From NCBI GenBank assembly GCA_034620365.1, contig JAQGEQ010000071.1:3038001-3102000 (forward strand): DNA of 64,000 nt, read 5' to 3'. The stretch is from Pegea sp. RAD2-039 (Eukaryota; Chordata; Thaliacea; Salpida; Salpidae). Every line of letters starts with the position of its first letter. Positions within the stretch are counted from its first letter, which is position 1. The position numbers and the translations under genes are program-made. Below are positions 38,802-44,800 of the stretch, piece after piece. The notes below the pieces were generated by a model. That model searched no databases. It was not told the DNA's origin and was given only the letters and a program-made list of their open reading frames with translations.

Positions 38802-41800
38802 TTAGTTACTTTTCGGAAGTGATTGGTAATAATCCACCAAAACTTGCCAGGCTTTTGGAGCCATGAAACCTTCAGGAAGTGTATCTCCTTCTCGAGCTGT
38901 TTTACGCATTCTAAATAAAGATTAAATGTAAACCCACACAGATTCCACCTACACTAGATTACAACTCATTTGTTACCTGGTTCCAGAAATAAAATCAAAA
39001 TTATCATGATTTTCTGGGTCGTAAAAATCCATCTTTTTTTCTTTCTTATTGTAAGCAGCAACGCGGAATGGGACAATACTAAACTGTCCCAGACCAGGAG
39101 CCATGGTCAACACCTTTCGACCATGTGAATGATCATACAAGTCCCGTTTCTCTTCAGGATGTGGCATACCAGCTGGATCTCGTCCCACGATGTAGTAATT
39201 AGCACCAGTTGACAATCGAGCTTTTGCATGCCATTGCACCTAACAGTAGATAAAGATGAGGATTTGATGTCAGATATGAGAGTCTTTACCTCAGTTGGAC
39301 CTGCATACATCATAGGAGATGGGAAGATGGCAACTACAGTGGATTTGCGGTCCAACACTCCTTCTTCCAACACCGCTTCGTGTTGTTTGATTCTAGTTTG
39401 AAGAGGAACATCATCTGATTTGGTCCAACCTCCTAAAGATCACAGATCAGCGCGAAACAAATCATTTTAGAAGCAAATTAACCGAGAGGATGCAAGAGAA
39501 GGACGGGATTTTTCATGCCCTGTTCGATCAGGCGTCTCCTGGTGTCCTGCATCAGTAGTGCATGTCCATTATGAACTGGATTACGAAGTTGAAAGGCAAA
39601 TACTGCATCAGCATCCATTTGCTTGAAGCGTTTTCTCAACTCCAACGGTGTCAACCTGTACACATCATCACATCACATCACGTCACCAATTTGATGACCA
39701 CCTACCTGAAGCTGTCTAGACCATCATTCCACTGGATACGTTCCAACACTTCGATTTCGCCACCACACAGCCAATCACCACTTTCCATTACCATCTACAA
39801 CCATCACAACCATCTTTAAACCAACTCTTTGCCATCTCAAGTACCTTGATGTAAGGATGCCCTTTGTTTGAAGTGCCCCATTGTCTCGAACATCTTTCTT
39901 CTTTGTGATGAGGATAGAACTCGGGATCATGCATCACTGCGTACACTTTTCCATCATACTTCAAAGAGATAGAAGGGCTTCCCTGGTATGTAATAGGGCG
40001 TGTTTAGCTTGACCAGGTACCAAGTCGTACTAACCTCAAGTCTTTTCTTGTCTGCATCGTGGACAGGTAGGACAATCGGTACCGACTGGTTGATGATCTC
40101 TCCATTGTCCAACAAACAACCGAAATGTTGACATTGTAGAAATTCTCGTTCCCGCATAAATCCTTTCAAAGGTGTAGCCCAGCCCTCGGACAACACTTGC
40201 AGCCACTGAAGGTCCAGCTGGGGGCAGATGAGAAGAGTTAGAAGTGAGGGGGTGAAGGTGAGACTTGTACCTTGGTCAGTTCAACACCTGGCATCGACTC
40301 AGCTTTACTTTTCAACAGCTCACGAGCATCTAAATTAACAAACAATTCTCTGACAGGCAAAGCACTTTCATACGGAATGATTTCCTAAAGAAGATTCATG
40401 AAAGAAGTTGATGAAGAAGAGGATCCAGCCAACCTGTTGGATCAGTTCTTTCACAATCAACATCATGCATTCGGTCACTGAGTATTCAGCTGTCTTCACA
40501 TTAACTTCGGGGTTCTCTGGTGGTTCGTAAGGTGAATCGATACCAGTAAAACCTAATAAGATCAAATTGTAAGTGGTTGTTGTGGTAGATGTAAAAGTAT
40601 TTAGAACAATTAGTTAATTTAACCAAATGTTTAACTCAAACTAAACAAACTAATATTTGTAGAAACATCAGGCTGAAGATTTTTTTTCGATTACCAAATT
40701 TTTTATCTAAATGAAGTCTTAAATAAATGATTAATACTAAAAGTTCATTGGCCTTTTCCAATATTTACTTTGTGACTTGTATAAAGATGGTAAAAGATAA
40801 ATAAAACAAAGTCCATTACAAGTGATTTGAACATAAAACTATAAAAAGATTTCATCTGTAAATGTGATGAAGTCAAAAAAACTTTATTTAGTAGAAAAAG
40901 TTTCAGAATTCTGAATTACTCAATATTAATTAGAGGTTAAGCAAGTTTAGGGTTAAAGTCAAATATGGAGATTTAATGAAAAGTTGTAAAACGACTGATA
41001 AAACCCGGTTAGATACAAAACAACATCACATACTGGCCATCAAAGTGAGTATTTGAAGATTGAAATAATTTAGAGATTAACTTTCTTAACACAAACAACT
41101 TTCAAGTGGTGTTTGAGTTTGATAAACAAAGAAAAGTTTGTGAAATAAACCTTTAAGAAAACAAGAAGAGAGCTGAAAAAACACAGACGTGAATACCTTG
41201 CAAGTTTCAACTTTACAGAATAAACTAAACTGCTTTCTATTATCAAACGCTGACAAGCGAGACAACTAGGTTTGATTTGAAACAAGTTCACGTCATCATG
41301 TAGTGTTGTATCAGATAGTAACCAGTAACATGGCATCCACTGACAAAGTTTACCTTTTATAATACCACTTCGAGCCTTCTTATATAATCCTTTTACATCT
41401 CTGCGCTCACATTCAAGTATAGGAGTGTCGACATAAACCTCAAAAAAGGGCAAAGAGGCTGTTTCATGACAACGTCTAGCATATGAACGATCCTAAAATT
41501 GTTCGTTTGTTTGTTACTGCCAAACTTTTCACAAGAACTTTGATCAAAGGTAATTTTTTGAATGAAAGTTTTTTTTTAGAAATCAATTGGTTGGTAGCAA
41601 AGCTTGAAAGAGAGCAGCAGCAAAACAATACCAAAACATGTCAATTAAGACAAGCTTTCACACCAGTTGTCAACAATTAAAAATCAAAATTACATCAAAA
41701 TCATTCACAATTGATAATCTGATCAACAAAGACATCTCACCTTTGATCTCTCCTTGTCGAGCTTTCTTGTACAAGCCTTTTACATCTCTTCTCTCACAAA

Positions 41801-44800
41801 CTGGTAGAGGAGTGTCTACAAAAACCTCCACAAACGGCAAGTTGGATTTGTTGTGGACGCGACGGGCACTCAAACGATCCTTAGATTATCCAAATTGAAA
41901 AGTTAACTACTTATAATTAATTTGCAAACTAATTAAAAGAATTGAAGAATAAGATTGATTGCTGAGAAGACTTGATTATTAGAGATTGTAAACATCAAAA
42001 AAGAGGCATTGAAAAGAATTAGAAAGATCAAAAGCAGGAAACAAGAGACTGGATCATTGATGTAATTGAGATGAAAATGTTTACGTTTTCACAAATCACT
42101 TAGAATAATGAAAAGTAAAAAAAACCTTTCGGTAAGGTGATATGAAAGATACCAAGCAAACTACGCCGGCATCGGCAAATAGTTTCGCCACTTCACCTAT
42201 TCTTCGGATGTTTTCTTCCCGGTCTTGAGGAGAAAATCCCAAATCCTAAAGATTAATTAGATGAGAAATTTGAGTAAAATTGACAACGATTAGAAGTTGT
42301 TATAAAAATATGGGATTGTCACCTTGTTTAATCCATGTCTAATGTTATCGCCGTCTAAATTATATGAAGGAATTCCTTTTGAGCAGAGATATTCTTCCAG
42401 TTTCATTGACAGAGTACTTTTTCCAGCACCAGAAAGACCTAAAAAGCAATTTTAATCGAAACTTATTCGAAAACTGAACGCATGTTGCAAAAACTTACCA
42501 GTAAACCAGACGGTACAACCGCGAAAACCGCCCTTTTTGCCCATAACTTGTCCACGTTTATCACGGGAGACATGGTGTTGTTGGTAAACAATGTTGGATG
42601 ACATCGGTGGCTGAAAAAGAAATGAAAAATGATTGATGAGTGATAAAGAATCAGAAAAATCAGTTTCAGAAAATCAGTGAATAGTTCCAAATAAATTAAC
42701 ACCAAGCAACAACAATCAGCAAAGTTTTGAAATCAAGTAAAATGAAAACACGATTATCAACTGCCTTAGGGCATCAATTGTTTAAGGGCCTGACTATAAG
42801 GTCGGTTTTCTAGTTTTGCTGGTTCATGACGGCACCCACTAACAGAGAAGAATATTTGCAAACAATCTTTTACAAAAGACAACTTACATTGTATTTAAAG
42901 ACTTATTTCTACTTAAAAATTTCAATCAAGCAAATGAATAGTTAGTAAAATGTGTCTACTTAGTTTAACATGTTGGCTAAAACTCAGTTATACTAGTTAA
43001 TTTATTGAACTGGTTAACAATTTGAGCCTCAAAGCACCGTCAATACATGGTAGAAAGTTTTTTTAAATGTCAAATATTTTTTTGTACTATTGTAAATATA
43101 TACTCACTTTTGAAGTTGGTTAAAAGTAAGTTCCAAAAACAAATTAAACAATCTGAATAAAAGTCAAAGCGATCAAATAAATGTATTAAAATTAGGTTTC
43201 AATTAAACTAAACTATTACTAAACCATCAAAACAATCTAATTTCTCAGCAAACTCAAAACCTCGATAGTTACCAGCACTAATAGTAAATAAAAAATAATT
43301 TTTGCTCCACAAACAAACTTGCCACGTATTGATAAAAACTGCTACAGCAATGAGTATAAATGTTTGATGAAATCTCATAAAACTAAAGTATTTATACTAT
43401 ATTGGAAGAAGAAAAAGGCTAGCTTCACAAAATACAGGGCAACTTAGTTTAGTTGAAAGACTGGTTTTATTGACAGTACATCTTTTAAATCAACACGTTC
43501 CACTTAGATAGTTTTATTTCATAGATATGTATGACAAAGCATTTATTGGTTATGTTGAATAGTTTTGAGAAAATGTGACGAATTTTGAAGTTAAAGTTTA
43601 GTGATTAGTCAAAGCTATTCAAGACTTGATTGACTCAAAGCTTATTCAAGATAATCGTGATTGACTCTTAATTTGAAATGAAATGTTATAATCGTGTTTT
43701 GAAAATTATTTTCCTTAAATGTCAAAAATCGCAAATAAGTTTTCAATAATCAGTCAGTAACAAATGAGAATTTACAATTTTTACAAAAAATTATGTGAGT
43801 TTCTTTCAATTAGTAAAAAACTAACTACTTATTTAAAAGAAAAACCCAAATGTCGTTAAAAATTAACTAAATTAAAACAATCTAAAACACAAATAAACTT
43901 GTAAGCTTTTTCATCTTCGAATTTATCAGAGAAACTTACATCTTGAGTTCTAATCTGATAAAAACATGACCGAAAAACGATTAAAGAAACTTAAAGAAAT
44001 ATTTAAACTTTACAAAAAAATTAGTAACCGCCTTCATGTAGGTGAAAGATTTCTCTGAAAATCAACTCGTATTACAATTGAAAAGAAAAGTTATCAAGAA
44101 ATGCTGTTTGCTAAAACTCCTGCTTGACAAATAAGGGTGTTGCTGAGGTACTGTTACACCCAAATCAACCAGCAAGTTCTACCAACAAGTACAATTTAAA
44201 ACCAGGTAGTTAAATTAACATCTAAAAGTAAAGGGTACATTTCAAAGATATTTACCCAACGATTATAATTTAAAAAAAATTGTTTACATTTAATTATACT
44301 TCACAGTTTATTGTTACTACTTTAATTCATAACACTCACAATCTTTATTACATTCTACTTTTTTGTCGTCTCAAACATTTTTTTACTTTTTTAAAACTTA
44401 TTGCTGACATAATACTCGCAAAATCAACAAAACTATAAATAAGTTAAAAAACTAGTTTAACCGGCAGTAAGTAAATGTTAAAAATTCTATATGTTAACAA
44501 CAACGCCATCTGAAGATGAAAAAAGTTTATAATTGATCAAAGTTTTAACCACAAGGTGATGACTAACTTTGTTTGAGTAAAAAATGATTTTTAAATGATT
44601 ACAGCAAAATAAAAATCGAATTAAGCTCACAAAAATAGTGCAGAGATAATAATGAATTTCTTTGAACAAAGAGTTTGAATCACAGTTCAATATTTCTGAT
44701 GGATGACTTTTAATAAAACTATTTTAACTTCCTTTTTAGGAAGTTACGCAAAATGCTCAAGATGTGCCAGAAGAGAGAGACTCCAAAGGACTCGACCACC

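Follow-up and report, generated by a model that had tools for sequence, protein, structure and literature searches.

Two interchangeable exons in a tunicate PAPS synthase gene

Can a single tunicate gene supply two enzymes of sulfate activation by choosing between two exons? Sulfation reactions take their sulfate from PAPS (3′-phosphoadenosine 5′-phosphosulfate), and vertebrates use two genes to make it. In the 64,000-nucleotide (nt) stretch of the salp Pegea sp. RAD2-039 analyzed here (the window; contig JAQGEQ010000071.1, positions 3,038,001 to 3,102,000), a PAPS synthase gene carries two adjacent exons, 5A and 5B, that encode two versions of the same 46 residues. We consider it very probable that these exons are a true mutually exclusive pair which arose by one ancestral tandem duplication and that both copies were kept; the choice between them, made by tissue or stage, would most likely tune the closing of the lid of the APS (adenosine 5′-phosphosulfate) kinase.

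We built a gene model on the minus strand between 38.5 and 46.0 kb, linking exons via their splice sites. It runs from a start codon at 45354 to a stop codon at 38802 and contains 13 coding exons common to both forms in addition to 5A and 5B. Exon 5A (41741..41879) was placed by splice sites and frame, and exon 5B (41354..41492) by splice sites, frame, and matches to Pfam and PAPSS1. The spliced frame fixes the common exons on either side: exon 4 (42126..42245), which ends in phase 0, and exon 6 (40434..40552), which begins GFTGID in phase 1. A reading made from the sequence alone had described two tandem exons of 139 nt, each entering in phase 0, leaving in phase 1 and bearing its own splice sites, 248 nt apart, and these coordinates, lengths, and phases are as it claimed; its four junctions (42126-41879, 42126-41492, 41741-40552, and 41354-40552) agree with our exon ends. 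Each exon is preceded by AG and followed by GT, and each joins exons 4 and 6 in frame. Including exactly one of the two, whether A or B, gives a 1860-nt message with an open frame of 619 amino acids, so that each copy fits its flanking exons as that reading had it. Its further claim that inclusion of both would shift the frame was also borne out: the message with both exons (1999 nt) and the message with neither (1721 nt) are each frame-shifted with early stops. Each productive mRNA would take one of the two exons, and because the frame shifts, the products of double or zero inclusion would be non-functional and probably degraded.

The two exons are identical at 96 of 139 nt and at 32 of 46 residues, leaving 14 residues different, which reproduces the earlier residue counts. 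Of the 43 nucleotide differences, 22 fall at third codon positions, and two methods gave a dN (nonsynonymous divergence) of 0.26-0.27 and a dS (synonymous divergence) of 0.87-1.19. The introns flanking the pair resemble each other in short matches alone. Together, the divergence values and the unlike introns point to an old duplicate under constraint and argue against an assembly error. Exon B by itself matches the Pfam APS_kinase domain (1.2e-13) and aligns to human PAPSS1 residues 138-183 (1x6v_B, 1.7e-15), and only 37 of 2000 dinucleotide shuffles of it are open in phase 0, so its open frame and homology are not due to chance. The pair has the equal length, shared phases, splice sites, protein homology, and unproductive double inclusion or skipping of mutually exclusive homologous exons, and both forms are annotated in relatives.

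The encoded protein is bifunctional, with an APS kinase part followed by an ATP sulfurylase part in one chain, and its residues 18-618 match human PAPSS1 25-624 (1x6v_B, E 5.9e-293). We looked for a second PAPSS gene with profile searches of the Pegea assembly (105.7 Mb, 387 contigs). Five candidates were scored for PF01583, giving four matches, and three candidates for PF01747, giving three, and neither profile matched anywhere but at this locus. The Pegea genome therefore likely carries a single PAPS synthase gene.

Both forms in other tunicates

Protein searches, each returning its best 120 matches, retrieved 282 proteins from a collection clustered at 90% identity, in which most isoform pairs would be hidden. 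Among the matches listed, the nearest named relatives of the Pegea protein are the tunicates Phallusia, Ciona, Clavelina, and Styela. Two of these have isoform pairs. Ciona intestinalis X3 (XP_009857500.1, P0127) and X4 (XP_026695321.1, P0004) differ at 12 of 601 aligned residues, all at residues 116-157, within the exon, which spans 114-159. In Clavelina, X2 and X3 have 14 differences over 603 aligned residues, all at 139-180 with the exon at 137-182, and their N-terminal starts differ as well. The A type is found in Ciona X3, Clavelina X3-X5, Styela X1, and P0123, and the B type in Ciona X4, Clavelina X2, and Molgula tectiformis. Among the retrieved proteins, M. tectiformis occurs as B only, and Styela X1 and Phallusia as A only. 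The earlier reading had proposed to seek the exon pair in related genomes; B-type protein records exist for Ciona, Clavelina, and M. tectiformis. The exon anatomy speaks for mutually exclusive use, the Ciona and Clavelina isoform pairs speak for it more strongly, and the phylogeny given below adds its support.

The concentration of differences within this exon is unusual. Among the 20885 protein pairs that could be compared, identity outside the exon reaches 97% or more in 58, and in nine of these it drops below 90% inside the exon; eight of the nine are Ciona or Clavelina isoform comparisons. The ninth, P0216/P0243, has 23 differences with 16 outside the exon, and two close species or alleles explain it equally well. 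As a control, we took pairs at least 96% identical overall and counted 46-column windows of less than 80% identity, which made up 16 of 232 windows overlapping the exon versus 2 of 1149 elsewhere. All 16 derive from the Ciona and Clavelina isoforms. No clear case of the exon swap outside tunicates was seen in the 20885 pairs, although with the best 120 matches per search and a collection clustered at 90% this does not demonstrate its absence.

The close relative P0123, 97.8% identical to the Pegea protein outside the exon, carries exon A alone. Its source sequence is 2431 bases long; in the window, the stretch that starts with exon 2 and ends with the stop codon takes up 3809 bases. Being shorter than this Pegea genomic span, the source sequence was evidently spliced.

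Origin of the exon pair

Trees were built from 32 hand-picked proteins of the 282 together with the window forms, 34 rows in all. A 24-row set omits P0009, P0016, P0030, P0145, P0153, P0195, P0208, P0209, P0227, and P0140, and in one further row set 9 near-duplicates of 46 were dropped. The tree outside the exon (557 columns) places Pegea with P0123, P0124, and P0126 (support 100/99), and these four nest in a larger group (98/95) to which Ciona, Clavelina, and Phallusia also belong. The exon itself (46 columns, 34 rows) gives a tree in which one 14-row group unites ten tunicate-like rows and the B forms of Pegea, Ciona, Clavelina, and Molgula. Molgula is placed with Styela by the rest of the protein (86/80) and with the B forms by the exon tree.

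On the 24 rows, the four B forms stay together in the unconstrained tree. Constraining A to pair with B within each species, for all pairs jointly, lowered the log likelihood by 42-43 units, and the approximately unbiased (AU) test gave p values of 0.0046 for lineage groups and 4.4e-5 for isoform pairs only. On these 24 rows a separate duplication in each lineage is rejected, and the favored origin is a single tandem duplication that would have preceded the split of the sampled ascidian lineages, with both copies retained. The same division appears at single positions. The 11 A rows and the four B rows have no residue in common at 162 (L or I) or at 164 (V or E), and all four B rows have I162, E164, and I181. 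The outgroup state is that of A, with L162 in all nine outgroup rows and V164 in six of nine.

The rows left out of the 24-row set, P0140 excepted, form a nine-row group of their own (100/100). All nine have ECE and bear the tunicate signatures SPYRK or SPLRK; some of their kin carry VCE. As a guess, they may be pelagic tunicates, larvaceans or others, in which B or both forms persist.

Position of the swap relative to the APS kinase lid

The swapped exon corresponds to human PAPSS1 138-183, and in PAPSS1 numbering the 14 differences lie at 140, 141, 145, 147-150, 154, 157, 162-164, 179, and 181. In the passages of PMC8710738 that treat the lid, it is P151-S180 of PAPSS2, with R158 stacking against the base of ADP and K161 bound to the ribose of APS. 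An offset of 10 converts PAPSS2 to PAPSS1 numbering, giving a lid at 161-190 and contact residues R168 and K171. Both of these nucleotide-contacting residues are the same in A and B. The sequence-only reading had the swap keep the catalytic lid, which holds for the lid core but not for the lid as a whole: by the lid limits of those passages, nine of the 14 differences precede the lid and five (162, 163, 164, 179, and 181) fall inside it.

The A form has L-x-V-C-E, the type common in other animals, and the B form has diverged to I-x-E-C-E and GIIK. Residue 164, V in A and E in B, adjoins C165. In Mycobacterium tuberculosis CysC, part of the text of PMC4373884 reports that Cys556 is needed for lid closure and that its change to serine abolishes activity. 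From the same spacing to Arg559 and Lys562, as that text numbers them, we equate Cys556 with human C165. A dead-end ADP-APS complex causes APS to inhibit APS kinases, and APS stabilizes the enzyme, according to sections of PMC3734648. The A and B forms likely differ in lid closing, and hence in how they bind ATP, how far APS inhibits them, or how stable they are, judging from where the substitutions fall. The swapped residues before the lid and near its start and end would tune its closing, and tissue or stage would set the choice between A and B.

A bolder version is that the exon switch resets the hinge of the lid, making tissue-specific enzymes with different APS inhibition or ATP dependence that have been kept since before the ascidian split. 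This is tentative, and we would sooner bet against it than for it. If it is true, the notochord or cells rich in sulfated matrix versus the rest of the animal is a possible division of tissues, and the pair would be a one-exon counterpart of vertebrate PAPSS1/PAPSS2.

Splicing signals around the pair

How might the choice between the exons be made? The introns around the pair are long: 246 nt upstream of exon 5A (41880..42125), 248 nt between 5A and 5B (41493..41740), and, in the gene model, 801 nt downstream of exon 5B (40553..41353), versus 49-77 nt for ten others besides intron 1, which is 2702 nt. The chance that these three would be the three longest of 13 introns is 1/286 if lengths are random, with intron 1 set aside after the lengths were seen. 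The first exon (45313-45354), upstream of intron 1, was placed on splice sites and frame alone. Among 14 donors, that of exon A ranks second in strength (-9.6 kcal/mol to U1); the exon B pyrimidine tract is the weakest of the 14 acceptors scored (6/17). The donor of common exon 4 (42116-42125, AAG/gtttttttta), which opens the 246-nt intron, is the second weakest of 14 (-4.1) and may matter for exon choice. These strengths would fit A as the default and B as an exon needing help.

Two exclusion devices found no favor. Competing RNA structures were rejected, as pairing among the three introns was no better than in shuffles (77, 26, and 66 of 100 shuffles were as strong or stronger), in a single-species test that could miss conserved short elements. 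Steric exclusion by too short an intron is made unlikely by length, since 248 nt compares with 49-77 nt in the ten other introns. Scans for RBFOX, PTB, CELF, ESRP, and STAR-like motifs produced four isolated hits, located in the introns of 248 and 801 nt, from which we conclude nothing.

Evidence against the pair and alternative explanations

Several results weigh against a functional pair of single origin that tunes the lid. The intron-pairing test found no exclusion device beyond the frame shift, and the predicted structure of Ciona P0004 (AlphaFold, run without an alignment) had a mean pLDDT (predicted local distance difference test) score of 32.7, was unusable, and was not used. The remaining points each lend something to one of three alternatives.

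The alternative that survives best is that A alone matters and that exon B is a pseudo-exon, a duplicate in decay or in rare use. Pegea B is identical to Ciona B at 35 of 46 residues versus 41 of 46 for the two A forms; the weak pyrimidine tract of B and the A exon of the close relative P0123 point the same way. However, B is open, has its AG and GT sites, and encodes a full lid core; B-type exons occur in annotated isoforms of both Ciona and Clavelina and in the M. tectiformis record; and all four B rows share I162, E164, and I181. We regard a pseudo-exon as improbable.

Slightly less probable still is that a real pair originated more than once, separately in each lineage, the likeness of the B forms being due to convergence. 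This would displace the single origin and leave exclusive use untouched. The 14-row group holding the B forms is weakly supported (54/84), the exon having 46 columns, and AU tests of single pairs in the 34-row set did not reach significance (p 0.183, 0.104, and 0.0936), failing to reject independent origins. The diagnostic residues are also not confined to B forms: E164 occurs in one of nine outgroup rows and in all ten tunicate-like rows set aside from the 24-row test, I181 occurs in two of nine outgroup rows and one of 11 A rows, and B-like ECE residues are found in bacterial CysC and some other proteins. Against convergence stands the joint test on 24 rows, with its loss in likelihood and its low AU p values.

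Least probable of all, and hardly credible, is that two PAPSS genes, or errors of prediction, gave rise to the Ciona and Clavelina isoforms, and that the window pair is an assembly artefact: these XP_ isoforms are known here as NCBI protein records alone, not from genomic DNA, and the Clavelina names differ slightly (X2 synthase-like, X3-X5 synthase 2-like), but the Clavelina X2 and X3-X5 records share a contig size of 28789166 and a single isoform numbering, outside the exon the two Ciona isoforms do not differ, nor do Clavelina X2 and X3 over their 603 aligned residues, the Pegea assembly has one PAPSS locus, and recent mis-assembly does not explain the window pair because the introns around it are unlike. 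NCBI adds variant isoforms on transcript evidence.

Relation to known systems

The mutually exclusive pair in Pegea is like known mutually exclusive homologous exons in its equal lengths, same phases, homologous sequence, old origin, and one-for-one swap of a protein segment. It differs from them in lying in PAPS synthase, a sulfate-activating enzyme. In PMC9741552, PAPSS is absent from the main text and the abstract stresses ion transporters. An earlier description of the PAPS synthase exon pair was not found among the open-licence papers listed, some listings ending at 10 or 20 rows, judged by titles and the starts of abstracts. As far as we searched, the isoforms stand in databases without a published description; the type of feature is known, and for this gene we found no earlier report of it.

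Tunicates are the sister group of vertebrates. Vertebrate PAPSS1/PAPSS2 likewise give each animal two PAPS synthase forms, but from two genes, whereas Pegea has one gene with a swapped 46-residue exon. Human PAPSS1 and PAPSS2 differ in stability and localization, according to parts of PMC3734648 and PMC3252339. Alternative PAPS synthase forms from one gene exist in mammals as splice forms of PAPSS2. One in mouse alters the N-terminus, unlike the internal exon swap of Pegea (PMC3252339, in the section on this variant). In Ciona, NCBI X3 and X4, named ATP sulfurylase/APS kinase (ASAK), are the A and B forms. Human PAPSS2 has a form with a short insertion. Ciona ASAK is handled as a notochord gene in PMC3034685, whose main text lacks the terms "alternative splicing", "isoform", and "splice variant".

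A conserved one-exon switch of this kind offers a compact natural experiment, with two enzymes differing in 12-14 residues, and the start of the nucleotide lid is a possible place for the evolutionary tuning of PAPS synthase. Ciona suits direct testing, with both isoforms in databases and the gene already studied in the notochord.

Neighboring genes in the window

Upstream of PAPSS, at 49196-51412 on the minus strand, lie open frames that encode an RRM-containing RNA-binding protein (PF00076, 8e-14, for 50039-50434), which resembles the A1CF/RBM47 group in sequence. In humans, PAPSS1 shares chromosome 4 with RBM47, and PAPSS2 shares chromosome 10 with A1CF; the neighborhood of PAPSS and an A1CF/RBM47-like gene may be an old linkage. 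At 59044-60839, also on the minus strand, HRDC (PF00570, 1.4e-15) and 3′-5′ exonuclease (PF01612, 4.2e-14) domains mark what is probably an EXOSC10/Rrp6 exosome nuclease gene. The plus strand has an open frame at 56587-57402 whose start reads, to our eye, like ZNF207/BuGZ, and for which Pfam gave a sub-threshold Jak1_Phl match only. A second plus-strand open frame, at 25626-27050, encodes 475 residues, the first 60 of them proline- and lysine-rich, and has no Pfam match.

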